A stretch of 64,000 nucleotides of DNA. Origin: Adineta ricciae (Eukaryota; Rotifera; Eurotatoria; Adinetida; Adinetidae). Within the stretch, counting starts at the first letter, position 1. The number at the start of each line of letters is the position of its first letter. Location of the stretch: contig CAJNOJ010000002.1 of the NCBI GenBank assembly GCA_905250025.1, positions 930,001 to 994,000 of the forward strand, given 5' to 3'. Below are positions 8,590 to 60,710 of the stretch, piece after piece. A program made the translations under genes and the position numbers. The notes beneath the pieces were generated by a model that did not search any database, was not told the origin of the DNA, and saw nothing but the letters and a program-made list of their open reading frames with translations.

Positions 8590-10042
8590 TTCACAAGATG
8601 TATACAATGCATCTAACAATTCTTCGGTTTCATTAACACCTATTCTCTCCTCTGCAACTCTTTCAACTAGTACATCGTTACCATCATTCAATTCTCGCGT
8701 TGTTGATGTGAGTATGGCATTGTCATCGAAACTTCAACTGGCATATTATATTGCAATTGCATTGACGGGCCTTGTTGGCAATACGACAACAATTATTGTC
8801 TTCTCACAACGACGTTTACGTTCATTACGCTCATCATTCTTTCTCACATGTTTAGCAATCACTGATCTTATATTCATACTGATCTTAGTCATCGCTTTTC
8901 TCGATGAATTACGTGCGCCGGTAATGACTATACCTGTCTGTATGATTACAATTTACTTAAGTCATATAGCATCGTTCTTATCGTCGAATTTTACATTGGC
9001 TTATACGAGTCATCGTCTTATCGCCGTGTTCTTTCCAATAAAAGCAACCAATTTTCTAAAACAACGTACGAATCGTATACTTGCCATCGCTTTATTAATC
9101 TTCGCATGTTCATTTTATTCAATATCATTTCCTGTAACAACAACCAAGTTTCGTTCAAATACGACAAATATTGTCTCATGTGAAGAAGATCGGGATAAAC
9201 CGTTGCTATTTCCATTTCTTGTTTTGGATACTTTATTTACATTTATTATCCCATTCTCGTGTATAGCTTGTATGAATCTCGCCATCGTCTATAAACTCAA
9301 TTCGAAATTTACCTTCTCGCAAAAGTCGCCGCTCTCGAATATCTCCACACCTGGCCTGTCGCTTTCAGCAAAAACATCAATCAATTCATCCGGACAATCA
9401 GTATCCGATGCTGTTCCATTATCGCAAATGAATAATGGTAACACGACAACAAATATTAATACAATTAGCACATCAAAAAATAGTAGTCATAATGAATTGA
9501 ATAATCTCAGTCAACAACAACAGCCGGCACAAGACAATTTTCATTTATCTGTTCAGCCATTACAACGACAGAATCGAACAAGACGAAACCATTCGTTACC
9601 ATGCGCTTTTGCACCAAGAAACGTTCCATTACAAGATTTGAATACAACAGTTCGCATACGTTCGACTCAATGTCGTGCAACGGCTTCGGCCAAAACAACC
9701 AAAATGTTATTAGCAGCATCAACTGTTTTTCTTGTGTTTAATTTACCTTATCACTTATTATTGTTCTGTTTCCTATTTATTCCACATCAACCAGCATGGA
9801 TGCTCGATGCTGTCAATATTGCACGTCTTTGGTTTTTTGCATCGTTCTGTGTGAATTTCTTCGTTTATACCATTTGTGGTCAACGATTTCGTAGTGAAGT
9901 TGTTCGTCTGTTCAGCTGTCTGACACTTCGACGATATATTTTATTACGCAATCAAAAACCATTACAGGACCGTCAGAATAGCATTTATTTGAGTCATCGT
10001 CTCTTACCAGTACCGTCAACGCGTTTCTCACATTCAAGCTAA
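8590..10042 (+). CDS. Class A (rhodopsin-like) G-protein-coupled receptor
   Basis: A seven-helix receptor at the cell surface, likely sensing a peptide or amine and signalling through a G protein; the ligand cannot be read from sequence. TM1 carries the GN motif (TGLVGNTT), TM2 has LAITDL, and TM7 reads NFFVYTICGQRF in place of NPxxY. At the end of TM3 the usual DRY is SHR. A Ser/Thr/Asn/Gln-rich third intracellular loop of about 120 residues follows TM5 (roughly 9300-9670). The in-frame ATG at 8714 leaves almost no extracellular tail, whereas the frame extends upstream to an acceptor at 8588-8589 and encodes an N-glycosylation-rich segment (YNASNNSSVS). I therefore treat 8590 as the start of an internal exon; the first exon is not identified. 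The downstream part is one exon ending in TAA at 10040-10042. Membership of class A is secure. Confidence 0.88.
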
Positions 10043-14300: not shown

Positions 14301-17300
14301 CGTTCAGATATAGAACATCCGTGACTGAGGAGAAACTCCATGCCAATGCGTCTGTTTCTTGTGGAAAACTTGCATACAACGAACGGAAACAATTATCGTG
14401 TTCACTGCAATAATGTCGACAATCGATTAAAAGTTTTTCAAGCTCTTGACTGGTATTCAGTTCGTTTGTTTTCATGTACAGTCGACTTGTTTGTTGATCA
14501 TCAATAAAACCTAAGATTTGCTCGGAAATAATCAATGTTACATCCGTATCTGCAATCATCTGGTCATCAATGGACCATATTGCATGATAGAGACATCGTA
14601 GATCGCCCCAATTAGGTTTTAGTCGTATACATTGTCGAATCGCATCGATAAAAATCGTGTGACCAAGGCTTTTCAATTGACACGAGAGAAAATTCAAATT
14701 AAAAAAACATACTGTTCGTAGAATATTATCCTTTCCCGAGCCGAACTCTAAACAATGATAAGGTAAAGCAACTAACTTTCTTTGATTAAGACTATTGGTC
14801 GTCTGCGAACTGATTAACCGATCAGCATCCTGTATAACCATATTATTTCGTTTTTTTAGTGTTATTGTTCGTTTATAAGCTGTTTGGTCGTTACAATAGA
14901 TCTCAATTAAATGTTCGTGACATTGTTTTCGTAAATGTTCGTAACGGTTACTTGTTGCTTCCAGAAACTTTCGATGATAAAACGATAAAATATGTTTATT
15001 ATGAATTCTTTTGCGACTCAAATATTCTTTAATCGAATAAAGTAGTGATTGACAGAGTAGTGACGGTACGTGAACAACATTTGGAATGGGCGGATCATGA
15101 TGAGCATAGATTTCATTAAGCACAATATCATTGATAGATAAACAGTCTTCTAATTCATTTTCGGAGATACCATTCAACCCGTAGACGAGATATGCAAGTG
15201 AATATTGAACAAATTCTTTGCCGTGACGATTTTCTAGACGTGCAAATAATTGTTCAACAGCATTTTCAATCGTTTCAGGAAGAGATAAGGTGATTTGTAA
15301 AGACTCATCAGCAAAATGAGTCCATGTTCGTGCGATATCCAACAATAATTTCAAATACAACGGCTTGGGATTATGCTCAACCGTCATCAATAGATGTTTG
15401 TATTGTTCCGATGATAGTTGTCGATGATTGACTTCTAGTGAACTTCGAATGATGTTTTCGAAATCGATGGGACGAAGGCGTGGAATGTGGAATAATGCTG
15501 ATTCATCATTACGAATGAATTGAGTGAATAAATCTTTTAAATTGACGCGTTCAATCGTCGGAATAAATGATATGAGTATATGAACATCATGAGGGAGATA
15601 GCGTAGTAACCACGATTCGAACTGAAAGGAATATTTAGATGTATCTTGAAATTGATCGATAGCATCCAGGAGAATAAACAACGGTTTGGGCGTTACTGAT
15701 TTTTTACGAAGAAGTTTCGAACGCTTTCGTGAGAGAGATCGTAATCGTTCGTGAAATATTCGAACTAACGAGGCAAATGTCAATGATTGATCGTCTTCGT
15801 TGTTGTCTGCATCGTCCTCATCGGTACCATAGACGAATTTCAACTGTTGACATAAAGAACGAATAACTAGCTCGATAGTCGTCGATTGCGCAGACGTGCC
15901 AAGAAAGCGGAGAAATACAGCACTTGTCGGATACCATACTCGCAAATTTTGGGCTAAACGTGCCATAAATGATGTTTTTCCACAACCCGATTCAGCAAGG
16001 AAGGCAATGGGCGATGCAACGTTTCGTCGATTAGCTTCAATACGTGCGTGAACATTAGAGAACAATTCTTCTCTGCCAAAGAAAAATTGATTCTTTTCTT
16101 GACAAAACAATGCATGATGTAAGAGATCTTCGTGAAACGGCGAAAGAGTTTTGTTTGCCAATGTTCTACAAGTATTCTCGACCATTTGTAATATCATTGT
16201 CGATAAGAATTGACAGAACTCATCGATATATTGTTTGTGTGATTGTTCTTTACTGATATCTAAACCACCGAGTTTCTAAATTCAAATTCAGATGAGAATA
16301 TTTTATCGGTAGATTCGTACAGTAATTACCCATGGAACAAGATATCGTTTGAATTGTGCTGGCGGTGTAACTTGTCCACAGTACGCTTTCAATCGATTGA
16401 TTGCATTCGATATACGTTCGTTTTTTGCTGAATCTATCGAAGGAAACTTGTTCGAGAATAGCGAGAGTTAGAGAGAATTACCAAAGAACTTCGCATCTGC
16501 AGGTGTTTCAACAATTGGATTGAGAAAATCTCGAACTACACCGATGACATTTGCAGTATTAGATGCCATGGTTCCTCGTCGAATTTCTCGTTCAGTAACT
16601 AAATGAATTGAAGAACTCTTCGATATGAATTGTCTTAAGTTATCTAAGAGTTTTTACTTGATTCGAAATATTTGCCAGCTTGTTCATGTGATATTCGCTT
16701 TTGTTCATATGCTCTGTCGACTGCGTCTCGTAGTGCTTTTAACAAAGCTTTTTCTTCCGTTTGCCATCGTTTCTTTTCCTGCTGTTGTTCAGCTGATTGT
16801 TCTTCAAAGTGTTTATAATGCGTCGTAATCGGCTGTAACAGAACAGTCTACAGATGAACTTTAGATGAAACATTGACTTACGACATAAACATATTTTGGT
16901 GGAAGACAATTTTGATCCAATAGAAACCATTTTTGTACAAGATCGATATTATCGATTTTCTCTTGGCGACCAACATCGATAATTTTCTCAAATTCATCCT
17001 GATCGATCTCTAATGGAACGTACATGTACCCGTAGCGATTTCCAACCAAATAAATAAAATTAAGACCAACTGATAGATCGATGCATCGTTCAATTTCATT
17101 CATACACATGAGATCTGCGGTATGATCAACATCTGCCGTGTCGGAAACACCCCATCTATGTGTTGCATAGGCATCGCCTTTAGATTTCAAAGCAAGGAAA
17201 ACGTCTGTTGGCCTACCTCATGTCGACAACTTGAAATTCATAGCCTAGTTGAGCGCAGCGTTGTTTGATTGTTGGAAAAACTCGTCGATAAAGTTCATTT

Positions 17301-18053: not shown

Positions 18054-20970
18054 ATGCTCAACAAAGTATTAAGCAGTTGCTTATGTTTGATATACTTAAT
18101 TCAGCCAATTCGTTCATTTTACATTCCCGGCGTTGCTCCGCTTGATTTTGAGAAAGGCGACAATGTTGATGTGAAAGTAATTCCACTATTTTTCCAAGAA
18201 AATAATAGAACATTGTTGATATTTTGTCTTTCTCTTTCTCTTTCATATAGGCAGTTAAAATGACGAGCTCAAAGACTCAACTACCCTATGATTATTATGA
18301 ATTACCCATTCATTGTAAACCGTCTGACGGTGTTCAATATAAATCAGAAAATCTCGGTAAATTTATCGCTAATTACACCTATCTTCGAAAAATAAACAAA
18401 TTTACCGTTTAGGCGAAGTTCTCCGCGGTGATCGAATTGTGAATACAAATTTTCGAGTAAAACAAATTCAAAAGAGAAGTCTTCGTCGATCAATTGATGA
18501 TTTCATGCTATTTAGGTGGAAATGGATGTCAATGTTCCTTGTCGAATCCTTTGTAAAGATATAGTCTTAACCAAAGAACAAAGTGCAATAGTATCGAAAC
18601 GTATCGAACAGAAATACTATGTTCATTTGTAAGATATCTGAGAAAACTTCGATAGTACATCAATTGAAAATATCTTTACTATTTTCAAGACTTGTTGATA
18701 ATCTACCAAGTGCTACGAAACTTCAAAATGTCGAGACTCAAGAAACTTTATATGAACATGGCTATCGCTTAGGAGTACGCACGAAAGATTCCAACGATGT
18801 CTTTTTGAATAATCATTTGATTTTAAGATTACATTATCATAAAGAATCCGAGTATGAGTATTTTATTATCGAGTCGAATATCGAACTTTTCTTTTTGAAA
18901 GAAATGGATATCGTGTTGTTGGTTTTGAAGTAGAACCAAAAAGTATCAGCCACAGTCGGATCAAAATTGACGATGAAGTCTCATGTACAATAGAATCAGG
19001 AGTTGATACCATGAAAATCAATGCAGAACGTATAGTTATCAGGATGAAAAATTCTTTCTTATGTCAGAAAAATTTCGCTTTGCTTAGAGGAAACAAAAGT
19101 TACAACAACATATGAAGTCGAATGGGTACCAAGTGATACACGTTGGGCCAGTCGGTGAGTATAAATTGATCTCGTAGAGCTTTTTATCTAATAGTGAAAC
19201 TGCACTGTAGTTCCTAAATTGTATTATATGATTTTAGCTGGGATACGTATTTGGCAATGTCTGATGTTCAGATCCATTGGTTTTCTATCATCAATTCAGT
19301 TATTGTCATCTTTTTTCTTGCTGGTATCGTTGCAATGATTATTGTTAAAACCCTTCGACGAGATATTGCACGATATAACCAAGAAGATTTGGTTAGTTTT
19401 TTTTCTGAAACGGATGAAATTTGAGTCTACATGTTTCTTTGATTTAGGATGAAGGTATCGAAGAAACTGGATGGAAATTGTTCGTTGAATATTTGATGAA
19501 TTATTTGGGAATTTCTTCTTTGGTTTCGTTTGTTTTTAGAGTTCATGGTGATGTTTTTCGTCCACCGATGGCTAAGAATTTTCTTTCAGCTCTTATCGGG
19601 TCAGGTATTCAGTTGTTGCTGATGCTGTTTATTGTCATTGGTTTGTATTTTATCTGAGCAAATGTTCCCACAAAAGAAATCGTGCATTTTGTCATTCAGT
19701 TTTCGCCGCACTTGGAATGCTTTCACCGTCATCGCGTGGTGCTTTAATTACAGCTGCTTGTTTTCTCTACGTCTTTATGGGGTATGTCGAAATGTGTTTT
19801 TCACATTGAAAAATAACATCTTCGTTTCATACTGACTAGGTTGATTGCCGGATACTTTTCTGGTCGAATTTATAAAACAATGAGAGGTACAAATTGGAAG
19901 CGAACTGCGATTTTAGTATGTCGAGAGTTGATTATTCTAAGAATGTTGATCATATCCGATTGACGGCATCTTTTAGACCGCTACACTCTATCCATCGGTT
20001 GTTTGTGGTGTTGGTCTATTTTTGAATTTCTTCATTTGGGGCAAACGTTCATCAGGTGCTGTACCATTCACAACCATGCTTGCCATCTTATCTATGTGGC
20101 TAGGAATTTCTTTTCCACTCGTCTATATTGGCTTCTATTTTGCCTATCGTCAATTAGTATGTTCGCGAGTCAAATGACAAACGAAAACTATTCATTATTC
20201 TAGCCGTATGAACATCCGGTACGAACCAATCAAATTCCAAAACAAATACCTGAGCAACAGTGGTATATGCATCCAGTCATCAGGTAAATGAAAGAAACTG
20301 AATGAATGTATCGATTTTGTTTCTATTTAGTACACTCATCGCTGGTAAGGTATTTGATAGCCAAAAAGAATGAATTTTCTGTATGAAATTATCTGTTAGG
20401 CGTACTTCCGTTTGGTGCAATGTTCATTGAATTGTTCTTTATTTTTACGGTAAATGAAAGTGGGATAGTTTGCAAATCGTGAGAAAATTTCGAGTTTTCA
20501 TCTATTTAGGCGATATGGGAAAATCAGTACTATTATTTATTCGGTTTTCTATTTCTTGTATTTATCATTATCATCAGTAAGTGATTAACAAGGCAATTCT
20601 GCGAAGAACTCCGTGTGCATTTAGTTGCCTGTTCACAAATCTCTATTGTCATAACATATTTTCAATTATGTGGAGAAGACTATCATTGGTGGTGGCGATC
20701 ATTCATCGCCTCAGGGGGTTGTGCATTCTACATCTTTGCTTATTCAATCTTTTACTTCTATTCCAAAGTAAATTCAATTGAATCATACGTTCTACAGATG
20801 AAGACTCTCCTTTATTCTAGCTTGATATAACTGAATTCGTTCCAATTCTACTCTATTTCGGTTACACATTAGTTATCTGTTTTACTTTCTGGATTCTCAC
20901 TGGTACAATCGGCTTTATTGCTTCGTATACATTTGTTGTTCAAATATATTCCGCTGTGAAAATCGATTAA
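18054..20970 (+). CDS. TM9SF4: Transmembrane 9 superfamily member 4 (nonaspanin)
   Basis: Nonaspanins are endosome/Golgi membrane proteins with a large luminal N-terminal domain and nine helices; they help sort membrane proteins and act in phagocytosis and adhesion. The signal peptide ([17 protein letters not shown]) precedes FYIPGVAP, then [17 protein letters not shown] and [15 protein letters not shown], all diagnostic of TM9SF4. [13 protein letters not shown] is restored across an intron (donor gttcgt at about 19473, acceptor just before 19541), and the helical bundle follows to 20970. The protein ends in VKID, the family's C-terminal K-x-D Golgi-retention signal. There are about 14 exons with introns of 45-75 nt. 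ATG at 18054 is chosen because it opens the signal peptide and follows an acceptor by seven bases. Length of about 620 residues matches the family. Confidence 0.95.
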
Positions 20971-21235: not shown

Positions 21236-22868
21236 TCATCGAATAGTGTCATATTGATTACAAACTAGTGCAAAACATTGTTGTCCATCAACTAATAAGC
21301 CATAGTTGGCGATAATACTCGGTCGTATTTGTTTTTCATTCAATCGCTCGATCAGTTCATGGTATGTTAAACCAAGTACAACCATCGACGAACCTTCTTG
21401 TTCTTTTGTCCACAGAGCAATAAACCGATAATCGCCGTTGTTCAAATGATAAACTTTCAAATCAACTAACTTGAAATTATCGATCAACGCTTTCGTATGT
21501 TCTTCAAGTAATTCATTTTCCGTTAGATTTATACGATGGTATCGATTGTGATCGTAACCTTTCGATGTAAATAAATTTGAATAATACAGATTTCCACATA
21601 ATAACAATGGACGGATGTTCACTGCATTGCATTTCTTTTCATTTAACCATCGATATTCAATCACAGGTGTATATAACTTATTGAAGGATTTATTCGATTC
21701 ATGACGTAAGAACAGACAAATGTAACGAAACATATTTTCATTCTTGTGACAATAGACATCAAAATGAATTAAGTCGAATTCGGAACGATTCATCTTCAAG
21801 GTTATTTCATGGAATTGTGCCGGATTGAGATCGTAAAACAGAACCGACGTACGATTTTGAAAGAGATGATTATCATTCCAAATAAATGTGAAATACTGAC
21901 GTTGATCGATAGTAACTACATCAAACCATGTTATATGGAAGTTTTCATAGATCGCAGAGAATACAAATGCCGATAATTGTTCGTATGGGATAGACAATAC
22001 TACATGTTGATTCATGGAAGATTTCTTCGATGGAGGTAATTTCTGTTCTTGTTGTAAAGATAATTCTTGTTAAAATAGATGAGAGAGAGAGATATGAGTT
22101 AGATTTGAGAGAAACATCAGCGTACCTTTCATCAATAAGATTTCTTTATGTCGCATTTCGTTTAAGAAATTAATCTCAGAGGATATCAATGGACGTTCAC
22201 TGTCGACGTATCGTTTGGATTTGTCGCTTTTTAACAGCCAGTCAGGTGTATGGATGGTTATTTCAACAAGTTTAAACAACGGTTCAAGTGATTGTTTAAT
22301 TGGCTCGTGCTAAATGAAGAAAAAAGTGTACGATCACATGGATTGACAAACCGAATGTTCTTACCTCACTGAGAAGGATCGTTGCTTTGTATTTTTTTGT
22401 TAATTTTTCAATTAAGGCTTCTGATGCTCGTTCACCATATGATGGTAAAATAACAGGCATTATTAATGGCAGATTATGACTACTGTCATGTTCCTGAAAG
22501 AGAGAAATTTCATGATATTTTCCTTTTTCTCCTGCATTTACGTACCAATGCAAATAAAAGCATCCATGAGCACCAAAATGATGAGTACCATTGCTCGTCA
22601 ATGATCGGTACGAATATTTTCGAGCGGAGAATTTGAATTGGTATCGATTCGTACCAATTCGTAGTGAAATCAATGTTGTCCGATGCTCGATAAATGATTT
22701 CTTGACTAAAATTGAACTCCTTCGCTGGTTTTAGTCTGGCTCAATTCAAACAACTTACGTGGAACAGTGCTGTTTGATAAGCGTTGCTACGGATGAACAT
22801 TGCGTCGATTGGGGATTAAAACAAAGAAAAACATCGACACCACATGCTTCGTGAGCTACATGCGACAT
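21236..22868 (-). CDS. Protein resembling polyglycine-hydrolase-like (BTRD1) repeats
   Basis: A soluble protein of about 500 residues, convergent with TM9SF4. The C-terminal exon (21236-22030) holds at least two imperfect units built on 'strand-Y-FIALW-K ... GLTY-ELIERL ... RPSIIANYG', for example DYRFIALWTKEQEG and LGLTYHELIERL. This layout resembles the bacterial tandem repeat domain 1 / polyglycine-hydrolase structural repeat known from bacteria and fungi. Upstream exons encode the segment from ISLRIGTNRYQF to HNLPLIMPVILPSYGE. I place the start at 22868, giving MSHVAHEACGVDVFLCF, with a 42-nt intron after 22757 that keeps the frame open; ATG at 22800 with a different acceptor is an alternative. 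A 48-nt intron at 22494-22541 has no stop and is a multiple of three. There is no signal peptide. The domain call comes from memory of the repeat pattern, and function is unknown. Confidence 0.55.
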
Positions 22869-24123: not shown

Positions 24124-26372
<2,249 letters not shown>

Positions 26373-27426
26373 AACGGTAATGATAAAGTCAACGGTGATG
26401 ACGATGAAATCCAGTCAAATATCTTCTTTTGTTATTTTCTATTTATTTTGTTTCTTTTTTCCTCATCTTGTCTCTTGTCCTTCCTTCGGCCCAGCTACAT
26501 ATCATTCGTGTCTTTCCTTACTTCTTCTTTGGTCTTTCCTTTGGATTTAAAACATCTGAGAAAAAGCTGAAAAACAAAAAAAAAAAGTCATAACATTTTT
26601 TGTAAACACGTATAAAAATATCAGTAATTCCCTTTTGTGCGTTCTTCTTCTCTTCATCTTCATTTTAGTGCTTTTTTCAGTGAATCTCTCACGATAAGAG
26701 ATATCCTCTTCCATCTAACCTGTATTTGAGCTTCATCATTCAAGCAGAGCCTTATTTCTATTCATTGACATGTCCTACTCGACTGCTTTGTGTGCAATAT
26801 ATATATACATATATATATATTGATTCTAGCCTTCTTCTTTCTTTCTTTTTGTACATATTATCATCGCATTCATATATGTATCTATCTCCCATTTTTCTAT
26901 TTTTTTTTGTTCACTTGTATGAACGTGTATTCATTCATTCTTGTTTGTTTGGTTCTTTCTCTCACGATTACGAACTATGCTATTCCTTTAAAGTAACAGA
27001 AAAGATTTCGCGGTCTTTTCTTTCCCACCTTCACTTGTGCAAAACTTTCAATATCTGTGTGGGCCAATTCAAGGAAAATGTGTTTCTATGTAGAGTTAGA
27101 TAAGTTATATATACATCTACGTATATATACAAACAAACACGTGTGCGTGTGTGTGTGTAATGAGTGTATTGTCGGAATAAAGCCGAACCATTGAGATTGT
27201 TGGTTTCAGTCGTTGGACTGACCAACGTAAAGCAAATCAATTTGTCAGATGATATGATAGAGTCATGGTAACCATTGCTATGTGTACAAAAAAAAGAAGA
27301 ACACAAGAAAAACTTGTTTTATTGTGTCGCGAGGAAAAAGAAAACTTTGGAAGAACAGCGAAAGCATGATTAGGATGAAGAGGGATGCTTGTTTATTACG
27401 TAAGAAGCATGAAAAGCGAATGTTTC
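26373..27426. other. Intergenic between convergent genes
   Basis: T-rich 3' flanks with (TA)n tracts at about 26800-26822 and a (GT)n tract near 27140-27158. The 125-codon open frame at 26726-27103 is a hydrophobic T-rich artefact with no splice or homology support. Confidence 0.55.
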
Positions 27427-39614: not shown

Positions 39615-40515
39615 AATATGAATTCTGAAGTGATTATGAATCGTGTGAATGAACTATTGACTTTCAATGTATATATATTCCGCTACAATGGGAGAGAGAG
39701 AGCGACAACTTATCGTGTCGACATCAACGGCATCGATAATAGCCGATTCTTTTGATCATTTGAAAATGTCTATTACAGATGTGCGTTATGCGATTGATTA
39801 GTGATCGTCTTGATGATGAAAGAATCATCAACTAAGTGACAAATCATCAAAAATATAGTTGAACCTTTGAAGGTTTCATAGGAAGAGAATGAACTTTACT
39901 AGAGATTATCTTTACCCACAAATATGAGTAGGCCAATGTACTTGTTCTGTTTGATAACGACATCTGGTATTTACGCCAAAACATTTGGCTTGTCTTAACT
40001 GATTAGATGCTATCATTGATTCCTGTACATTACAGCAGGAGAAGACGCTAGTCTGGAAGAGATAAATATAGAGAAGTCCTTTTCTGATCGACTAATGCAG
40101 TAAAGTATAATGATGACTAAAGCGCTACTTTCACTTTTCTATAGAGATTGGATGACTATTTGTACTCTTTTTTGGCTTCGATTATAAAGTTTATGATATT
40201 TTAAAGGTTACACCAAAGCTGAGCCATCTTGTCCGATGAATAATATACTAAACTGTCATTTTATTCTATTTTTTAACATGATGACTCATAACGGATAACA
40301 AAAAAGACCGTGCGTTTACTTCTACTTATTTTCAAGCCTTTTATTTTCTTGTTTTTTTTTCACGTCTGAAAAGAACCTTGTATGAGTCATAACACTGCCT
40401 CATTTATGTCAAGAATATAGAATAGCAAAATCATTGCAAAACTTCCAAGCAATATTATTCGTATAAGGCAAAGAAACTTCCACCAGTAGTACTACTTATT
40501 TTAGGCAAGGAAACG
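39615..40515. other. Divergent intergenic region, 0.9 kb
   Basis: A (GA)n tract lies at about 39691-39704. An acceptor (ttattttag, AG at 40503-40504) precedes the DUF4139 gene's ATG by eleven bases. No other feature is supported. Confidence 0.45.
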
Positions 40516-42454
40516 ATGTCGACAACAACAAACACGATTAACGGAGAAGAAAATAAATTATTGGAACCTGCTGTTAAAACATCAATTGTTCGATTTAATA
40601 TCAATCAACAATGTCCGATACAAAATGTCACGGTTTACAACGATCGTGCTGAAGTTACACGACTTTTAAAGCATCATTTTGATGCTGTAGGTACTTATGA
40701 TTTAGTCTTTGAAGGTTTTTCTCCATTCGTTGATCAAACATCACTACATGTCAGTGGAGGAACGGGTAAAGCATGTACGATCCTTGAAGTCTCGTATCAA
40801 ACGTGCTATGATAAGACATCACCAGATGTCGATTTAACTTCGTTGGATCAATTACAGAATGAATTTCAACAGGTCGTAGCGGATATCACTGCCCATCAAC
40901 GAGAAATAGCACGTCTTGATAAACAACGAGCCTGGCTTGATGGCCGAGCGACGAAACTGATGAATCAAGATGGGGAGATAAAGTCAAATGATCTCGATGC
41001 CATGGATCAATTTATGGATTTTTATCGTAAGACTTTAGCGAAATTGGACGATCGAACAACTGAAGAGGAGAAGGAGGTTAAAAAATTGATCGAACGCAAA
41101 GATGGATTAAAAACGAAAATCGATCAACATGGTGCAGCAAGTGATGCCAGTCGTCGAAAAGAACGTCGTGAAGTGACCATTACAGTACATATAGGAACGG
41201 GCAATGTTGATGTGGATCTGGAACTATCATATTTAATAAGTAGTTGCTCATGGAAAGCAAGTTACGATGTTCGTGTTAGTAGTACGGATCTTTCAAACCA
41301 ACGAACACAATTAACCTACTATGGTATCATCGTAAGTATTGTAGAAAGAAATATCTTTCTAGACAATATCATGTGATCTATGTATATTATGCTTTAGACT
41401 AATAAAAGCCAGGAAAACTGGAGTGATGCACAACTATCGTTATCAACAGCTACGCCGTCACTTGGAGGCGCCCCGCCAAAATTATCTACATTGAAAATTG
41501 AATACTATCAGCCTCGTTATGAGAGTCGCTCATACGATTGTACTTTGTCGGATGAAGGTCTATCTGATATGAAATACTCACTGAGTGCTTGTGGGTTAGA
41601 GGCGGAAGAAGCACCACGATCAAGAAAAGCGAAAGGCTTTGTGAGTTTCCGTGGTCGATCAGCTCTTCCTTCAAAACAAATCTCTGAAGATGAAGAAGAT
41701 CATGTTAGAGCACAAAACACAGTCAACGTTTTATCAACAACAACTGAAGCCAGTATGTCAAGTTCTAGTTTTGCCATACCTCGACGCGCAACTATTGAAG
41801 CTGATGTAAGTTTTCTCAACATTTGTCATTACCGCTTGGTAACAATAATTTCCTTTTTAGGGTAAACCACACAAAGTAACAATAGCAGTTCTCGATCTCA
41901 GCTCATCATTCGTCTACACAGTCGTACCAAAATTATCACTTCACGCATATCTCAAAGCAACAACTACGAATACATCAGATAAACAACTTCTCGCCGGGCC
42001 AGTTGCAGTTTTCATGGATAATAATTTCGTTACAAATAGTACCATCGATAATGTTTGCATGGGTGATACCTTTGACTTACCATTAGGTACCGATGCTAGT
42101 GTCAAAGTCGAGTATAAACCAGTTAAAACCAATACCGAAACCCAAGGTATAGTTTCGAAAACTCATCATGAAACAGTTCGTCGCGAGACACGCATTGTCA
42201 ACACAAAACTAAGTGACATAACAGTTCACGTCTACGACCAAGTGCCTCGATCATCGTATGAGAAGATCAAAGTCAAGTTACTCGTACCCGATCTACGTAC
42301 TAAACAAGCAAATACTGTCTATACTGTGACCATGAACGATCAAAACAATTTGGAATGGAAATGTCTCCTGAAATCCAAAGCGGATTGTCGACTGCCGTTG
42401 GAATATACATTAGAATGGCCAAAAGAGAAACGTATCGATTACAAAGAAGAGTAG
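40516..42454 (+). CDS. DUF4140/DUF4139 protein (mucoidy inhibitor A-like, F37C4.5 family)
   Basis: A soluble protein of about 605 residues found from bacteria to animals, with no established biochemical role. Exons 40516-41331, 41398-41805 and 41861-42454 join exactly. The N-terminal DUF4140 part includes VTVYNDRAEVTRLLKHHF and YDLVFEGFSPFVDQTSL. A coiled coil follows (EIARLDKQRAWLDGRATKL; EEEKEVKKLIERKDGLKTKI). The DUF4139 part contains VDLELSYLISSCSWKASYDV, YYGIITNKSQENWSDAQLSL, FVYTVVPKLSLHAYLKA, AGPVAVFMDNNFV and DTFDLPLGTDASVKVEY, ending KCLLKSKADCRLPLEYTLEWP, which are family hallmarks. A Ser-rich insert interrupts it near 41700-41780. ATG at 40516 is the first in frame after an acceptor. 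Family certain, function unknown. Confidence 0.94.
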
Positions 42455-47400: not shown

Positions 47401-48387
47401 ATGTCATCCTCTCGACAATCATCGAATAATAATAATAATAACAGTAATAATCATACACATGCAAATCAAAGACATGATCGACAAACAACTGATAGAGTGT
47501 ATGTGAATCTCATCTCGAATGACTTCTGTCTGTGAAAGATTATGTTAGTTCTAGCAATAATCAAAGATCTTCTCAACGACAGTCAGTCGGTCAACATGGT
47601 CAGTCGTAAGTTTGACGTTTAATTAGAAAATTGGATAAAAATATTGGTTTTTTTTTCTACTTAAGTAACTATGAAAATGATTTCTATCAACAAGCGTATT
47701 ATCAAGAAGATTTTGATGATAACTTACCCAACGAAATTGTTGCTGAATTAGATGCAAGAGAACAATATCAATCGAATCTACACGATGATGATGAGTCGAT
47801 CTTTTCGGATGCTGTACAAGACGCGTTCAAGAAGTATCAAAACGAGGTAGATCAGATGAAAACCAAAACTTATCCGAAGGCATTTCACGTTTTGGACTTA
47901 TGATGATGCGATGTATTCGAAAAGAAAGTTGGCAAGCAAAACGAACACATCCGTATTCTAAATGTTGGAGAATGAGTCTTCCTTTCAAAGACGAGTTAGG
48001 TGACGATGAGGTACCTGCTTGCTTTTCGCTCGCTAAATCACGCTAATAGTTTTCGAATGGATGGACAGAACTGAGATTTATATGACTTTTTTTTTATTTA
48101 GCAAGAAGAATTGTATGCCCAAATGGAAGAATGTTGGAACTACATGGCTCAAGAGAATGTCAATGACGAAAAATTGCAAACTTCAGTAAGAATTTTCATA
48201 ATTAGGGGAGTCTACGAACAGTCTCGTTTATATGTAGATGGAGCAAAATCAAGAAAGTACATTAAATCCGGATGCTAATGAATTTCAACCATCGTGGTTA
48301 AAACCTTCCTCATATGAAAAGAATGAAACAGCTTCAAATACCTTCCCATCAACCAATCAAAATGAACAACAAAGCAAACGAGATTGA
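47401..48387 (+). CDS. PAM2-motif protein, PAIP2-like (poly(A)-binding-protein partner)
   Basis: The C-terminal exon holds STLNPDANEFQPSW, a textbook PAM2 motif (LNPxAxEFxP) that docks on the MLLE domain of cytoplasmic poly(A)-binding protein. The preceding exon reads QEELYAQMEECWNYMA, acidic and PAIP2-like. The N-terminal part (MSSSRQSSNNNNN...) is Asn/Gln-rich, followed by acidic DFDDNLPNEIVAELDAREQY and DDDESIFSDAVQDAFKKY. Exons: 47401-47503, 47561-47605, about 47667-47846 or beyond, about 47900-48010, 48103-48186 and 48239-48387 (stop). One join is unresolved: after KKYQNE the frame stops at TGA 47901-47903, while the downstream frame opens at an overlapping ATG (47900). No canonical intron I can see reconciles the two, so this could be a frame change, an unusual splice, or two short genes. 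The acceptor abuts the ATG at 47401, favouring that start. Confidence 0.65.
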
Positions 48388-48785
48388 ATGTTCGTTTGTA
48401 TTTGTTATGTATACTCTCGTTCGTTTGTTCCAGCGTCTTGATTCATTTTTTTTCTTGTTCTACATGGCTTTGTTTCCCCTATTGAAACATCTACGAAAAA
48501 AAAAAGAAAAGAGAATCTACATCTGCGTGAGAATTTTCTTCTATGAATGCTTATTTTTATCGTTAGGAAAAGAAAACAAACGAGGTAAAGAGAAGTTTTT
48601 GTTTTCAAAAGTCTTTTCTAATAAATTACCTTCATTTAAGAACCACTTATCGGCGTTCCTCTTCTTATTTCAGATGATAAAGCGATCATAGACTGCTTAT
48701 GTAAAAATTTTCTTCTAGATCTTTTATTTTGGAATCGGATTTTCTGCTTTGTTAACCCGACTCTTTTCTCGATTGAGAGTAAAGA
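48388..48785. other. Intergenic, 0.4 kb
   Basis: Holds the 3' flank of the PAM2 gene. An open frame covers part of it but has T/A-run composition. No other feature is supported. Confidence 0.45.
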
Positions 48786-51302
48786 ATGTCATCCATGACG
48801 ACTCGCAAAGTAGATTCTTCTGGTAAAACTTATTGCACGAAATCTCACGACCAAATATCTGTCGAAACAACCGGATTAGCTATGGGAATCAATGGTAATC
48901 ATTCATTTGAGGCCACTCCATCGCCCTCATCGATCGCATCAACGAGTACAATTGAACATTCCATGAAAGATCGACATAGGATCTTATCATCAACGTTAAA
49001 AAGTAAAACTTGCAAAAGATTCTTTTGTCGTGAATAGCTAGTTTTGCATTAGATGATCATTCCCATCTGACTGCTAAACGTCGTTCTCGTTTTGAACGCC
49101 TCTTTCATCATACACAATTGATTAATCGACACTATATGATGAACATGACGAACATTTTATTGCAAATGCAAAGAGAAATTCATAAACTAAAACGACGTAC
49201 CAGTCGCATGGAACAATCTGTGGTTAAACAAACTAAAATGGTACAACCAGTTATTCGTATTCCTCGACTGACCAGAGGTTTTTTATCTAAAAGCCCAATA
49301 TTTTCTCATCAAAAGTTTCTTTTTCGACAGATGAACTTTCGACAATCTGCATTTTTGATAATGACAACGATGTGCATGAGAATGAAGCAACTACCGATGG
49401 CAATAACAATGAAATAACGCTCACCCATCCTCGAAAATCGATAACATCGAAGAGCATCAAGCGCTTAAGTATGAAAAAGATTTACGATCTTCTCTCGTGG
49501 ATATTGTTGATTTATAGAATCGAAACACAAGCGTATGAAAGCAATTTTGGGTTTAAAAAACAAATCGAAACGTGCTATCTGGATTAATAATCGACAAAAG
49601 GCAATAGATCCCAACAAATATTGCTCAACATGTCGACATGAATTTTCCAAACGATCGAATTTTCTTACGCATGTTCGAAATATTCACAAAGGTAAATGTC
49701 CACCTTTGATCAACGAACAAGATCAATCACTTTTGGAAATGAATGAAGAAAGTGCAACACGTGACCATTCAGGTAGATTTTGCAAGTCAAACACGAAAGT
49801 GACTTTTCGAACATCGATTGATTTCATTAGGTGTAGTTTCGGATGAAGATGCGCAGTCTTTACAAGCGTTGAATAAATCATGGGCTACGAATCAGCAAAA
49901 GTCGCACGCGCGAAGCAGTGTGAAATTATCTCGCGAACCAAAACGAAGATTGAAACTTAAGTGTGATGTCTGTAACAAATTCTTTCGATCGGATTACCTC
50001 AAAGTAAGTCAATCAAAGATTTCATTCGAGATACACATACATACAAATATGATTAACTCTGTTTGATATTCGATTATCTAATCAAAACAAGATCGACTAG
50101 TTATTCTAACCTTGTAGTTATCAGAAGCTTATTTATATCTGTTACAACTTGTCGGATTGATCTCATACAGACATAGCACATACTGAAATGGGTCCGAAGT
50201 TAATACTAGACTAAACACATAGCTAATAATTGACTATTCGCTGATCAGTGTCATGTATAGTAAACGTCAAGACAAATCAAAAGATATTTTGAATAACTTG
50301 AAATTGCTTTCCTTAGTCACATAGACAACGTGCTCATCATGATCAACAAATCTTGTCGAGTTCAAGCGAAGGCAACTCAAGTTCTGAGCAATCTGAAACG
50401 GCTTCGAATCGATCATTGAATGAAAATGTTACATCTAACGAAATGCTGCGTCCATGTGTATCAAACACACCTGCAACAATAACAATAGCTGAAATGGATT
50501 CTGACGATGCACCAATTCTCTTCCGCGTAAGCATTTTTCGAAAAAAAAATTCGATAATTAACTCACTCTTCTGCTAATCTTACAGAATGATTCAGCGCCT
50601 CGAATTGTTCTTGCTGTTACATGCCTCGAAAGCTATCAGATAGTAAGTATAGTAAAACTCTACGATAATTGTGACAAGTTGATTGTTTTGTAGGAATTAG
50701 TCGAGAAATTTATCGAAAAATTCTCTTCTCGTGTTTGTCAAACAGCTTCTATCGATTCTCGAACAACGCATCTAATTACCAACGATGAAAAAAGTCCATT
50801 ACGTTCGCCATTGTCCATGAAGTTAATCGAGGCTATTGCTCATCATTGTTTCTGTGTATCGTACCGTTGGATAAGCGATTGTCTTAATCAGGACCGAATT
50901 CTCGATGAAACTTCATACGAGATCGAAGGCGACGATACTGATGTTCTTCCACACGGTGGACCGCGCCGTTCGCGTTTCGTTCCAAATCGTCATTCGCTTT
51001 TCGAAAATATTTGTTTTATGATCAAATGTACAGAAAACTCTGATATACGAATGACGAATGAACGTTTAGAAGATTTAATCACCACATGTGGTGGACAAAT
51101 CATAACCTGTGTAACACAACGATTACTTGATAAGCACCAAATCATCGTGCTCTGTGATATGATGTATGTGTCCGAACGACGTCACAATTATGATCAATGT
51201 CGATCATTAGGTATACATTTTGTTTCGTCAGACTGGGTGCTCGAATCTATTCTTGAATATCGACGAAAACCTTTTTCATTATTTGAAGAAGTTCCCTTAT
51301 AA
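48786..51302 (+). CDS. C2H2 zinc-finger protein with C-terminal BRCA1/BARD1-type tandem BRCT domains
   Basis: Eight exons join in frame to give about 640 residues. The N-terminal half is Ser/Thr-rich, then a basic coiled coil (ILLQMQREIHKLKRRTSRME) and Lys-rich stretch. Finger 1 is CSTCRHEFSKRSNFLTHVRNIH (positions about 49623-49690). Finger 2, CDVCNKFFRSDYLK|SHRQRAH, is split by a 316-nt intron. An acidic Ser-rich linker leads to BRCT1 (RIVLAVTCLESYQI; THLITND; KLIEAIAHHCFCVSYRWISD) and BRCT2 (FENICFMIKC; LITTCGGQII; FVSSDWVLESILEY). The inter-BRCT linker GPRRSR matches BARD1, and the Ser/Lys pair in SMKLI fits the phosphopeptide-binding Thr/Lys of BRCA1 and BARD1. No RING or ankyrin repeats are present. 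A DNA-damage or chromatin role is inferred from BRCT. Splice joins inside the finger and BRCT1 argue for one transcript. Confidence 0.85.
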
Positions 51303-54300
51303 ACTTCTATCAAGTGTCTCTCTTTTGTGATGTACAGATCTTTCATTTCATTGTGAATTGTTTTCATTTTGCAGCGATAACTATGATAAAACTCGAACAA
51401 TAATGTTTTTCTCTTCGTATTATTGTTTGTTCGTATCTTTTTTTCCTTGTAATAGTTCTCATTTGATAATAGATAAAGGTCACTTAAATAATAAATAAAA
51501 TATGTGAATATGAATCATTCATTGGAAATGGAATAGCTTAGTAAGAGATTGGAACCTCGATGAATTCTGGCACGACGCAAATCGAGAAATACGCTGGTGT
51601 ATTCTGAAAGATATACCGCGTGAGCAATGATTGTCGTCAAAGATTCGATGATGGCACTTCGATCATGCTCTTGCGTTGATTTGTGTAAAAATATATGCTG
51701 GCTGGGCTATGTAAGAGCAATTCTCAGGTTCTTGCTGAGAAATTTTTATTTTTGCTTTTAATTAGAAGAAAAACATACCGATGCGTCGTGAAACACCTAA
51801 TCAAGTATATTTCATGAATACTCTGCTTGAATTATGTACATCGATGGTTCCAATACCGGTTAGAAATAGCAACATGACGTGCGGAAGCACGACGTTTCAT
51901 TATAATTTATGGATATGAATATTCTCCTAACTAGGAAATCTTTATTAAAATCTCATAACCTTCGATATCATGACTGTTTGTATATGCACATGATTACTAG
52001 TGTACTTAAAATTCTCTATGAAGCAATTAGACATCAGACGCCAGACAAAAAAGGTCAGAAGAAGAAAGATTTGGCGCGAATAAAAAAAATAATTACTTTG
52101 TTATCTTATAAGAAGTACATCCAAATATTGATTTTGTCATTAAATCTAGTTATATTCAAGTTCATCATGTCTGATCAGTCATGTGGATAATAAAGATTGA
52201 ATGGCAATGTTTTTGTCGAGGAAGCTTTAGCCTTGCTGCTGTTAACATTCCATACATGTCAATATTTGACGTATGATGTTAGTTAGTTTATATAAGATAT
52301 ACATTATCACTTTCCGATAATTGATAGAAATATATTCTTTTTCCAACAACCATATTCACAATAAGATCAATCAATCGGTTGGTGTTGACATGTTAATCAT
52401 GACCTGAGTTCTTTCCTATCCTCTCTCCCTCTCTCGTTCTTCGCGGATATAGGTTTGTAATTAAAGTTCATTGACGACATTTATTTTCCACATAAACCAA
52501 TCGATTATTCATTTTTGCTTTACTCATCCTCTGACAGGTTTATGTCCGTGCTGTACCTTATCACTATTATTGATTGGATATCGAGAGAAGTCTTAGCATG
52601 GAAATCTTTTTCGTTTTCGTAACAGTTGGAATTAAATGATGGATTTTGAAAATGTCTAGTTAATTAGGCAGTATTCTTTCATCTAGGTAATATCTTAAAG
52701 GTCGCACAAAGTAACATCTTGAACCTTCAGTAAAAAAGCAAAAACCTAATCTGATTTTTCTTATCGAAAATCTGTACACATTCACTCACAACTCATGCAC
52801 AACATACACTCATTATATTTAATCGAAATATCGTAATTGTAGAGATTGATGTCGTTTATAATAAGATGGAGATTACACTTTTCTCGAACTAGCCCTACTG
52901 CTCCACCTTATGCTTGTCTGTCGATTAGAATACTTCTACAGTAGTTGTCTGTATTTCATTTCTGAAGCTATCGAGTAATCAAAGCCGACAAGCGAAGGTT
53001 GAATAGGAGGGAAAAGAAAGAAAGTGAACTACTTCGAAAAACGACTGGTCGACGCGTGTGGTATCGACGGCCTTAGCCTATGATGTATGTGTATGTCTCA
53101 ATTAGTCAAGGCCTTGATTTGATTCTCTGATGATAGTAGTGCCTATACGTTTTCTCATTTGACACTAAAAGCTTCACTATTTCTACTTCTGCCTCTTCTC
53201 CATTGCTGGATATTATCTCGACATCAACTATATCTCTTGTACGTAAATCAGACATGTTCATAATATCAGTTTTCATGGTCATGACAGTCGTTCAAAAGAT
53301 ACACTAAATGCACAAATAAATGGCAGCACTACACTTAACCATAGATCGATTATCCGTTTTTATGATAAGTGCACGCGCATATGTTCGAAGTTGCTATGTG
53401 CGTGTGTGTATGTAGGCTTGTCATTGCTACGCTAGATTATGTTTATCTATTTCACATCTCGCCTTAGGCAAATAGACACAAAATTTTTGACAACGACAGG
53501 TAATCTAATGCTTTAGGTGCACAATCTGTATGTATCTCAAATGTATCTGAGGCATTGAATCAGCTCATATAAATAATGTCTTTGCGCGTCAGCAATTATT
53601 TTCGAGGTTCATTAAATCATATCTATCCAATAGGTTATAATGTCCTTGTTTACTTAACAATGAAGTGTCTGGCTACAAGTGAGAATCAGATTTGAAAAAA
53701 AAACCAGACGTACACATCACTAGATCCGGCTGAGTTTGAGCATTTGTGATGGCTAGTCCAGTATACTTGTCAACTTTCGTTCTATGTCAATGAATGACAA
53801 GGACTAAGTATGTCAATAATCATGAATTGACTAGCTAATTTCATTCATGAGAACTTTCTGAAGATTTATTTGTGTATTGTTTCTTTTTTTTTCTATGCAA
53901 CATATATGCGCATATTATTTTCAAGTAAGGAAAAATCGAACCAGGGAGTTCATATCATCAAAAATTCTATTCATACTGATAGTATGAAGTGCTTGATATA
54001 AAGTACGTTTAGAAAAGGAAAATAAGAGAAAGAGAAAGAGAAAGAGAGTCAGGAGAGAAAAGAGAAAACCTCGTTGAAACAATATCGTATTTTCAGGAAG
54101 AACATTATCGTGATGAGAACGAATAAGTCCAACGAACAGACGAGAGAGAGAGAGACATTTGAGAAGTTCTGTTCTTGACTGTTATGTAATTGATTAAACA
54201 AGTAGTACAAGTTAAATAGATGACATGGTTAGATATTAAGGCAGACTGATAAGATCTCGAATATCATTACGTCGGGATTAATGTTCGAACTGAGGAAAAT

Positions 54301-54715: not shown

Positions 54716-56337
54716 ATGTTGAAAGAAAATGCAAGTGTTTACATGGAATCATCTGTTATATCGGTTGTCACAATATCAATGCAGAATCTGGAGTCTAGTG
54801 GCAGTTCTGTGAAATATTTTCAACTTTTACTCAAGCGTTTTGGTGTTATGTATATGGCAATTGTTATTACTCTTGGTTTTATTGGTAACTCAATATCGTG
54901 TTATGTGTTCGTTCGAAGTAAACTTCGGTAAGAGGAGAGCAATGAGAAATGTGAAGTACAATGCAAGCATTTGTTTTGATTTTAGACGTTTAAGTTGTAG
55001 TTTATACCTTACAGCTTTATCAATATCGGACAATGGATATTTAATCTGCTTGGCATTAATTTGGCTTGAAAATATTCGTGTTTTTATCTTTCACAATAAC
55101 GGAATATGTCAAGTTACAGTATACCTAACGACCGTCTTCAGTTCATTATCAGTGTGGTAGGAGTTTTAAATTTTTATATAGAATATATAATCTTCTCATC
55201 AATTAGTTATCTTATTATAAAGGAACATAGAACTTTGTGCCCGAGGAGAAATATTTTCCGATGTTTGATACGGTGAACTTCATTAATAAATGTAACAATC
55301 ATCGTTTTAGGTTCACCGTTGCATTTACTACTGAACGTTTTGTCGTTGTTGCTTATCCATTGAAACGTTCTCAATATAATTCATCAGCACGAACCCGTTA
55401 TGCTGTTGTCTTATTGACATTTCTCGCCTTGTTCCTCTATTCTCCTACTCTATGGACATCAGGTATCGAAACAACAGATCCCGAACGATCAACATTACCT
55501 TCATATGACACGCGTTGTGTTACTCTTCGTCCTTGGCTTCGTTTTACTCGTCAAATGAATATAATTGATTTCTTTCTAACATTTATCATTCCTTTTCTAA
55601 CTATCGCTACATTTAATTCGTTAATTATCCTTAAATCTGGCCAATACGATCGTTTACTGGAACGAAATTACATTCAACCATCAACTTATATTCTGCATAA
55701 TCTTCTCGAACATCGTCTACGTCGTTCGAAATATCATCGACGTATAACTAAAATGTTATTAATCATTTCGACAACATTTCTACTACTCAATACTCCTATG
55801 CATTTACTGAAAGTTTATTATTTTTTCTTTTCGAACGACGATACATACGATGAAAAATCTTCCTATGAATCGATCATCGAAATGTTAACATTTTATTTAT
55901 TTTATACAAATTTTGCAATCAATTTTTTCCTTTACTCGCTATGCGGAAAGAATTTTCGTTCGTGTCTCATGGGTTTACTCAAACAATTCGGACGGACTAA
56001 ACAAACGAATAGTTTCCTATCAAATGGCTTATTTCTCGCTGGTCATGCGGCTATTGATGAAACACCTGTCGTTCAATACTGCAAACATTTACAACGGCCT
56101 GAGCATCTTCGAAAGTATTCAAAACGTGAAAACAGTAGTACAGTAAGTAGTAGCGGAATCAAAGGAAATCCATTACTATCAACATTTCATGCTGCGACAA
56201 CTGGTACAATGCATCATACATTACATCAGTTAGCGTCGGATTCATCACTAAAAAAATCGCCGCTCAAGATCGAATTACTAACGAATGGATCAACACCGAC
56301 CGTTCTCAAATTTTATCCACCATTTACAATTCACTGA
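54716..56337 (+). CDS. Class A GPCR, neuropeptide-receptor type
   Basis: Exons 54716-54928, 54986-55158 and 55311-56337 encode a seven-helix receptor of about 470 residues. TM1 has TLGFIGNSISCYVF, TM2 LTALSISDNGYL, and TM3 is followed by TTERFVVVAYPLKR, with TER replacing DRY. ECL2 keeps the Cys (YDTRCVTL) that pairs with the TM3 cysteine (NGICQV). TM5 ends FIIPFLTIATFNSLII; TM6 is preceded by HRRITKMLLIISTTFLLL; TM7 reads FAINFFLYSLCGKNFRS in place of NPxxY. The AYPLKR loop is typical of peptide receptors (FMRFamide/thyrotropin-releasing-hormone-like), which suggests a peptide ligand; the exact type is not determinable. The N-terminal tail has a sequon (NAS). The Ser-rich cytoplasmic tail ends at 56337. 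Confidence 0.9.
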
Positions 56338-58037: not shown

Positions 58038-59672
58038 CTAATTTTTCACATTCTTTCTGCATACTTTCTCTAAAACGTTCAGAAATTGATATCGAAGAAG
58101 CCGATAGAGCATTTCGGCAAATTCCATCAATGAAAGAAAACTAATTCCAATCCAAAGACCTGTTTGACCACCAATATTTGAGATAACATCAACAGCACCC
58201 AATGTTGCTTGTTGTGTGTAACTTTCGACCTGAGTTGATCCGCATACAACGTCAAGACCGACATAATTCGATCGGATCTCTGTTAACCAAGTTGTTGACC
58301 AATTAGCAGGTAAAGGAATCGACGATATTTCAACGAATTGCTTGATATCATTCACGTACCACTGCTGTGGTGCAGAACTGGATGATATTTGTATGGGAAA
58401 ATCATTTGTAAAACATTCCGATTCACAATCCTTCGCATACTCTCCTGTAACAGAACTTGAGTTTCGAAACCGAGTAGCTGCTGCAGAATAACACGGATCA
58501 GACACATTACATAAATTCGCGAAGATAACATTGCTAGTGCCAAGAGGAACAATATAACGCGTCGGCCATTGAAGAGGACTAACGCAACCACATTGTTCAT
58601 ATCTAAAGGTAACGAATGGCGCACGAGTTTTGAGTAAATATATCTAAGCGTGTTGATCAAACATACGTGTATATTTGATTTGCAACTTGAAAACATATCT
58701 GTTGACCATAAGAATAATTTGCACCTGAGAATTGATCGAACATGGCTTGCATACCAAGATTATTTTTCTCAGTACAGGTAGTGTATGGCGATGGCAAAAA
58801 TGTATTTGTTGTTGTGCTGTATGCTATTTTATGTTTTCGTCCTGCGACTAATTCAACACCAAGTCTATCAATGAGTGGTAACTGTGTATTATCATGAACC
58901 ATTGCTACGATGCTAGTTGCTACGTGTATGCGAGAAAAGAACTTCTAGAATGATATTGTACACTGGTGTTTATATCCTTACCATCGGAAATGAATGGAAC
59001 ATATTGGTGACTGTGTATATACAAATCCAAATGGAGTTTGCCACTTTGTCCATTTTCATTGTTATAATGTATCGAGCCATTGTTAATGGCAGATGTTTGA
59101 GCATTGAATGTATAACAACGGCCATAGGTAGGGGATTGAAATGTAACAAAATCATCGCTCGAACAATTCTTACCATTGTAAATACATTTGATTAACATTG
59201 AACTTAGTGAGAAGAAAATTTGATTTACGGACTCATTTCGATTCAGTTTATACTGAAGATAAGAATAGATATAACTCGCTTGCTGTTGAGTAAATGCAAT
59301 CCTATCGGTATTGGTTGTATTCGTCAGATTGAAAGTATTCGTATAGTTTAAATAGGATCCAATGAATTGATCATAGCGAAACGGAGAGTAGTTACAGATA
59401 GTCACTGCTGGAAAAGGTTGTGGCCATTGATTGGCGAAACGCACTAGTGTCTGTGTTGGATAACTATAGTAAGCAAGAATCGCTTGAGTTACAAAAAAAC
59501 TCATGATTCCGAAGAATCCAACGAATGAAATTGACCAAAAGATTCGATTATGTAGACTTTGGCTACGTGCGATACCTGGGATTCCATGAGTCGATGTATT
59601 GAAACCGAATTCGCGGATAATCATCCGACGTTGATCGGAATTCGATTCGGTTTCTAAGGAGGTCGCCTGCAT
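58038..59672 (-). CDS. DEG/ENaC (amiloride-sensitive) sodium channel subunit
   Basis: A trimeric ligand- or proton-gated cation channel of the plasma membrane. Three exons (about 58983-59672, 58666-58921 and 58038-58602) give about 490 residues. The N-terminal cytoplasmic part contains the pre-TM1 region with HGIPGIARSQSLHNRIFW, matching the family's 'HGxxxI' gating motif. TM1 is FVGFFGIMSFFVTQAI. The ectodomain opens FPAVTICNYSPFRYD and contains the conserved Cys-rich segment YEQCGCVSPLQWP. The selectivity region is GGQTGLWIGISFLSLMEF, including the GxS filter (GIS) and the start of TM2. All sections are intact, so it should be functional. The start is ATG at 59670-59672; an upstream TTG frame extension is ignored. 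The short C-terminal tail ends KNVKN. The gating ligand is unknown. Confidence 0.93.
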
Positions 59673-60710
59673 TGACAAAATAATTTTTGTGTATGCTTCT
59701 TGACGCCACTCAATATGACTTGTTTATTTCAGTTAAATAAACTTAGTGTATGCCGATCATTCAAAGTAATATAGCTTTCAAAAGAAGCCCTCAAGTAATT
59801 TGGCCCATAATCATGAATGTGTTTATCAGGAAGTATATCCGTCGTATTTACAATCATCCGTATTCTAACATTATGCATGAACTCGATCGCATGCATTCGA
59901 TTCAACGTATTACACTACGCATGATTTAACTAATTGGTACCGATTGACCTTTTGTTTAAGACGTTTGAACTAATGTGGGAGAGAGTGAAGTCTTAAGTTC
60001 TTAGTGTAGTGAAGCTATGTATAGCAGGCTATTTTGACAAAGAAAACAACGAAGCCATTACAAGTTGACACGCTTTCCAAACATAGTCGATCAGGTTTGG
60101 CAAAGAGAACGAAGAAATAATGACGTCGGTATAAATAATAAATGAATGCACTTTTGCTTACATCTACGTATGCTCACATTCCAATATTCTCTTTTCTTAA
60201 ATCTCCATCACATACAAGAATATTATCTTATTTTTGGAGCTCCGCAGAAAACAAAAGTTAGGGAGATACCTTCTTGGAAAATCGATCGTAGACGTCATGG
60301 TATGTTGCTCTTCTAAGGCATAGAGAGATTCTTTTCTTTGTTAAACAATAAAATATTCCAATAAGACTTCGGTTGTTATAATAGTATTTGTTTATTCTCA
60401 TGTCAAAATTTGTTTTTTAATGAATCATCAGCCGATTGATTGGTTCAAGGTGTAGTTACTCTACCTTCATTCACCGGTGAATGAAAATATCAACGCGTAA
60501 CTAAGAGGAAGAAAAGAGGTCGATTCCCAGCAACGCTTTCAATTCATCGCATGAATTTGTCACACAAGGTCTGAATTTCAACAGCATTATTGTTATTTTT
60601 AAGAGTCTCTAGTTATTAAGTGGTTCGAACGTAAGTGATCTTATATATAATACTCAGCAATTTGCCCAACGATATCAACGTTGTTTTCTGTCTAATTAGG
60701 AGATAAATCA
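59673..60710. other. Divergent intergenic region, 1 kb
   Basis: No supported exons. An acceptor (tctaattag, AG at 60698-60699) sits eleven bases before the next gene's ATG. A 74-codon open frame on the minus strand (60616-60840) overlaps the next gene's first exon and is a shadow. Confidence 0.45.

Follow-up and report, generated by a model that had tools for sequence, protein, structure and literature searches.

According to the excerpted text of PMC8483008, the C-terminal domains of BRCA1 accompany an N-terminal RING in the orthologues of eight distant species. In the BRCT pair the phosphate of a bound peptide is held by Ser1655, Gly1656 and Lys1702, and a Phe at position +3 by Leu1701, Phe1704, Asn1774, Met1775 and Leu1839 together with Arg1699; missense substitutions at G1656 lower binding or eliminate it (PMC4728184, as excerpted). 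The R1699L exchange weakens binding as well, raising the KD for a phospho-CTD peptide to ~413 uM in the excerpt of PMC12805184.

Does a BRCA1-type BRCT pair also occur in nature apart from the RING? Within the window, by which we mean the whole 64,000-nucleotide stretch of Adineta ricciae DNA analyzed here, a single gene on the plus strand (48786-51302) encodes, in our hand-set model of eight exons, a product of 627 amino acids. The protein differs from BRCA1 in this size, in its lack of a RING and in its C2H2 motifs, and from BARD1 in having neither RING nor ankyrin repeats. We regard the following explanation as probable: one gene specifies a RING-less, BRCA1-type tandem-BRCT protein, in which the N-terminal half of BRCA1 is replaced by a pair of separate C2H2-type motifs, probably accompanied by a basic coiled coil. 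C2H2-type motifs together with a BRCA1-type BRCT pair and no RING are an unusual combination, and exact-phrase matching in the open-access literature retrieved no description of C2H2 motifs combined with BRCA1-type BRCT domains.

The open frame runs unbroken across the eight modelled exons, from the ATG at 48786 to the TAA at 51300-51302. Seven GT-AG introns, set by hand, measure 50, 53, 49, 58, 313, 59 and 51 nt; six of these lengths are not multiples of three, so that the frame depends on intron removal. Exon 1 (48786-49002) contains the start codon, which was also picked by gene-model searches, and is less certain than exons 4-8. Exon 2 (49053-49277), very basic and heptad-patterned over aa 101-131, is the least certain, and exon 3 (49331-49468) is drawn from the hand model and the gene-model searches. 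The first C2H2 motif lies in exon 4 (49518-49772; aa 229-250). Exon 5 (49831-50003) supplies the Cys half of the second motif (from aa 323), which is then interrupted by intron 5 (50004-50316, donor GTAAGT) and resumed in exon 6 (50317-50526) with its His half, followed by a linker that is rich in Ser and acidic (pI 4.1 over aa 351-410). The first strand of BRCT1 is encoded by exon 7 (50586-50642), intron 7 (50643-50693) interrupts the domain, and exon 8 (50694-51302) comprises the remainder of BRCT1, the GGPRRSR linker, BRCT2 and the stop.

How far is this model recovered without knowledge of proteins? We searched 48701-51400 for the best spliced open frame, with dinucleotide shuffles as the null. 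Without splice weights, the search returned 48786-51302 at three low intron costs, a score reached by none of 200 shuffles, and shared two, three and four of the seven hand-set introns at the respective costs; the intergenic comparison stretch 51311-54010 gave 93 codons. At high intron cost it fell back on 50817-51302 alone, free of introns and matched by 1 of 100 shuffles. Splice-site weights came from a general animal consensus and had not been fitted to the source organism. With these weights, the lowest of four costs again yielded 48786-51302, with five of the seven introns (3-7) in common and exon 2 skipped, and the second-lowest cost yielded 49535-51302 with two of seven (0/200 shuffles in both cases). 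The two highest costs retained only the single open frame 50817-51302, with none of the seven introns and 1 of 200 shuffles matching. The weights score both splice sites of intron 1 as weak, and the donors of introns 1 and 2 likewise; since the weighted model also skips exon 2, the coiled coil may not belong to the protein. Exons 4-8 are thus well supported, exons 1-3 less so, and exon 2 with its coiled coil least. Codon scoring, trained on 14 open reading frames of the window, did not separate the exons from intergenic DNA (-0.07 to 0.08 bits per codon in the true frame, against a 99% point of 0.05 for the intergenic best of three frames).

The BRCT pair itself is recognized without difficulty. 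Both Pfam BRCT (4.4e-16, strongest over aa 414-489) and BRCT_2 (1.2e-13, aa 527-617) match above cut-off, as an earlier reading of this locus from sequence only had proposed to check. Compared with all solved (PDB) chains, the pair finds BRCA1 first (1l0b, 3.5e-15; other BRCA1 rows from 4.7e-12 to 1.9e-11), and all 18 of 18 BRCA1 rows fall between 3.5e-15 and 1.9e-11. BARD1 follows at 0.0054 to 0.022. To give a scale, 174 aa of BARD1's own BRCT pair, most of its length, reach 1.2e-9 against 1l0b. Smith-Waterman shuffle z values rank the families alike: 32.3 and 24.0 for two BRCA1 sequences, 15.7 for BARD1 and 5.2 for MDC1. Identities are low and do not by themselves separate the families (57/188 and 49/192 for the two BRCA1s, 50/186 for BARD1), and a five-sequence tree does not settle the position of the pair (43% support). 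The BRCT pair is strongly supported and, judged by these comparisons, appears to be of BRCA1 type, nearer to BRCA1 than to BARD1. The sequence-only reading had called it BRCA1/BARD1-type; its tandem BRCT assignment holds, and the family is narrowed to the BRCA1 side (3.5e-15 against 0.0054). The GPRRSR linker on which that reading also relied is present. It is identical in solved BRCA1 1l0b and in BARD1, and reads GPKRAR in human BRCA1. AlphaFold2 applied to exon 8 alone, without an alignment, gave a mean pLDDT of 35.1, too low for the model to be of use.

A further tie to BRCA1 lies in the gene rather than the protein. Exon 7 ends between codons, after an Ile that aligns with BRCA1 Phe1662, so that the 51-nt, phase 0 intron 7 sits at the place of the human BRCA1 intron c.4986|4987 (codons 1662|1663, phase 0), as documented by the variants c.4986+6T>G and c.4987-2A>G in the excerpt of PMC6772163. 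The BARD1 junctions in the BRCT part given in the excerpted text of PMC6877745 are 1677|1678, 1810|1811, 1903|1904 and 2001|2002, and among these there is none at the equivalent place, codon 582|583. With six BRCA1 junctions in ~618 nt of BRCT sequence, as counted from partial sources, simple arithmetic puts the chance that one intron matches at ~1%. The common intron place, with so low a chance of coincidence, favours descent from a BRCA1 gene at the DNA level.

Is the phosphopeptide pocket of BRCA1 preserved along with the fold? In alignment with human BRCA1, the phosphate-binding residues Ser1655 and Gly1656 are replaced by the Thr-Cys of exon 7, conservatively in the case of Ser, and Lys1702 is kept. 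The earlier claim of a Ser/Lys phosphate pocket is therefore borne out for the Lys, the only identical residue of the three, and not for the Ser. Of the +3 pocket, R1699/L1701/F1704/N1774/M1775/L1839 reads L/M/I/R/M/L here, with two of six residues (Met1775 and Leu1839) kept. Elsewhere Thr1700 is Ser, Arg1835 is Ser, and Trp1837 is kept. The place of Arg1699 is taken by Ser in BARD1, which thus resembles the present protein in lacking the Arg as well as in possessing the pocket Lys. Because Leu stands at the Arg1699 place, and changes of G1656 harm BRCA1 binding in the excerpted literature cited above, phosphopeptide binding may be poor. From the aligned residues, the first anchor, for the phosphate, seems plausible and the second, for +3, is changed; binding of the canonical pSxxF motif has probably become weaker or been retuned, and may be lost.

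The N-terminal half is less clearly assigned. Its two Cys/His motifs, taken as two C2H2 fingers in the sequence-only reading, are indeed there, yet both remain below the Pfam cut-offs (zf-C2H2 16.7 bits against 25.2), so the proposed Pfam check of the fingers returned matches of sub-threshold strength. Finger 1 has the classical spacing C-x2-C-x12-H-x4-H, in which it resembles FOG/U-shaped and classical C2H2 fingers. Finger 2, C-x2-C-x11-H-x4-H, is one residue short of the pattern C-x2,4-C-x12-H-x3,5-H. Some 70 residues separate the two, which are isolated where a DNA-reading array would have its fingers in tandem. Weak, non-significant finger matches include ZFPM2 (FOG) and U-shaped, and the fingers of these two bind proteins. 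With sub-threshold motifs this far apart and such matches among them, we do not uphold the suggestion that zinc fingers recruit the protein to DNA. Against solved structures the N-terminal part gave six matches, none convincing; the best was the RNA-editing complex protein MP42 (0.0028 for the whole sequence, 0.14 for the best single stretch), and U-shaped scored 0.54. The region aa 71-146 has a pI of 11.9. Seven of eight core heptad places are hydrophobic in 28 residues that begin at aa 103 within it, a score equalled by none of 500 shuffles; this segment was selected as the best of 48. The basic coiled coil proposed earlier is accordingly matched in charge and heptad pattern, and it falls within uncertain exon 2, which the weighted model skips.

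For the 627-residue protein Pfam lists neither RING nor ankyrin, as previously claimed, and no full RING pattern occurs in the stop-to-stop, unspliced six-frame readings of the window. Half-RING patterns occur at three places (20000-20083, 24605-24727 and 26784-26873), all more than 20 kb from the gene. The next upstream gene ends ~400 nt before the start of the BRCT gene, and a RING hidden in the ~400 nt between the gene and the next upstream stop was considered and rejected. Absence of a RING thus appears supported, for unspliced frames as distinct from an intron-split or distantly trans-spliced RING. BRCA1 has a cluster of SQ/TQ sites; the present protein has two such sites in 627 aa, one of them within the BRCT pair.

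Could the model have merged two neighbors, a zinc-finger gene that ends after exon 5 and a BRCT-only gene that begins in exon 6? Intron 5 is far longer than the others (313 versus 49-59 nt), exon 6 offers two in-frame ATGs as possible starts of a BRCT-only protein, and the unweighted search took a rival intron 5 donor at 50061, which breaks motif 2 though it keeps the frame into the BRCT exons. However, reading on beyond exon 5 leads to a stop at 50064-50066 without any His at finger spacing, whereas exon 6 opens with His residues that complete motif 2 in frame. The donor at 50004 scores 3.9, the best of the seven introns, against -5.7 for 50061, and models spanning both halves were picked at the lower costs with and without splice weights. 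Furthermore, the exon 7 frame has an in-frame TAA at 50559-50561 and no ATG from there to the end of the exon, so BRCT1 needs exon 6. We reject two separate genes, which we consider very unlikely, on the grounds that exon 6 completes finger 2 in frame and the donor at 50004 is strong. The evidence supports splicing of finger 2 to the BRCT exons, and a single gene, as seen at genome level, is likely; this agrees with the earlier preference for one gene over two neighbors and with its observation that introns interrupt finger 2 (intron 5) and BRCT1 (intron 7) without loss of the frame. A separate doubt concerns the motifs themselves, which might not be zinc sites at all; the protein would then consist of a disordered basic region followed by the tail of BRCA1. 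Their sub-threshold scores and the residue missing from finger 2 speak for this; yet at least two loose motifs arise in only 24 of 20000 protein shuffles (a strict PROSITE-like motif appears in 64 of 20000), and the usual core places of both fingers, read from the sequence and allowing for the gap in finger 2, are hydrophobic. We judge it unlikely.

Nor is a source of the pair in another tandem-BRCT family (MCPH1, PTIP, MDC1 or BARD1), or in an unrecorded C2H2-BRCT family common to many animals, easily reconciled with the scores, which drop sharply after BRCA1 in both the solved-chain and the Smith-Waterman comparisons. PTIP (0.1) and MCPH1 (microcephalin, 0.13) score poorly among the solved chains and MDC1 is absent from the matches up to E 10, against 3.5e-15 for BRCA1; an origin from any of these three was rejected. 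The intron fits BRCA1 and not BARD1, a comparison confined to these two genes, and the literature search noted above retrieved no C2H2-BRCT combination. In favour of such a source are the exact GPRRSR linker of BARD1 and the composition of the sequence collections searched, which hold no eukaryotic genomes as such, so that a wider family would not show. In these collections the BRCT pair gave two pattern matches in viral contigs, neither confirmed, and none in phages, and the whole protein gave 33 pattern matches in genome contigs, none confirmed. We hold another family to be quite unlikely. More weight attaches to the view that this is simply the organism's own BRCA1 orthologue, diverged, with its RING end lost or replaced and without a second, RING-bearing BRCA1 elsewhere. 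The BRCA1-like BRCT pair and the BRCA1 intron agree with it, as does the table of over-expressed A. vaga genes in the excerpt of PMC12220480, which labels one BRCA1 and one BARD1, by label and without architecture. Against it, the protein has no RING and only the two SQ/TQ sites, and the BRCT pair alone ties it to BRCA1. We take an orthologue as a real possibility, if one somewhat short of an even chance. In evolution, the gene may have arisen either by fusion or from an ordinary BRCA1 whose RING end was lost and to which fingers were added.

How might a RING-less, BRCA1-type protein of this kind work? Its BRCT pair would recognize a phosphoserine of a partner protein by way of the Thr and the retained Lys, and its second pocket would no longer prefer Phe at +3. 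The coiled coil would dimerize the protein, and the isolated fingers might contact a nucleic acid or another protein. Lacking a RING, the protein would act as an adaptor rather than a ubiquitin ligase. A role in DNA repair is something we infer; the protein could be a rewired DNA-damage reader. A bolder version, which we consider rather unlikely, is that in a desiccation-tolerant animal the BRCT module of BRCA1 was separated from its ligase end, joined to protein-binding fingers and a coiled coil ahead of it, and given a rebuilt +3 pocket (R1699 to L, F1704 to I, N1774 to R). The product would read a new phospho-code at DNA breaks without carrying a ligase. Were a BRCA1-type BRCT pair to occur naturally with no RING, the reader and the ligase function would be uncoupled. 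The wild-type residue at the Arg1699 position is Leu in this protein, the same residue that in human BRCA1 weakens phosphopeptide binding in the excerpted report cited above. In a bdelloid, a rearranged BRCA1 would bear on break repair, A. vaga being reported to lack BRCA2, Nbs1 and Rad52 in the excerpted text of PMC6264785.

The window has a mean GC content of ~35.5%, short introns and genes of animal type, features compatible with a bdelloid though no proof of one. Upstream, on the plus strand, the last exon piece of a gene at 47616-48388 carries a PAM2 motif (PF07145, 20.9 bits, cut-off 20); its two other pieces have no Pfam match, and the gene looks related to PABP-interacting protein 2. 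A NACHT/STAND NTPase with an NWD1-like winged helix is encoded on the minus strand at 14173-16275. It is adjoined by the minus-strand open reading frames 11679-12638 and 12655-13551, which have sub-threshold beta-propeller/WD40 matches and may belong to the same gene. Plus-strand genes include two rhodopsin-type GPCRs (7tm_1; 8570-10042 and 55231-56337), a nucleotidyltransferase resembling MTPAP/poly(A) polymerase (24470-24958), and open reading frames at 40426-42454 that match DUF4140 and DUF4139 above cut-off and are probably exons of one gene. On the minus strand, two open reading frames at 58038-59723 match the amiloride-sensitive sodium channel family (ASC) over its N- and C-terminal regions. 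Finally, at 21236-22069 on the minus strand there is a weak match, at 24.1 bits barely over the cut-off of 23, to the polyglycine hydrolase-like repeat BTRD1; at a guess, this may be a horizontally acquired gene.
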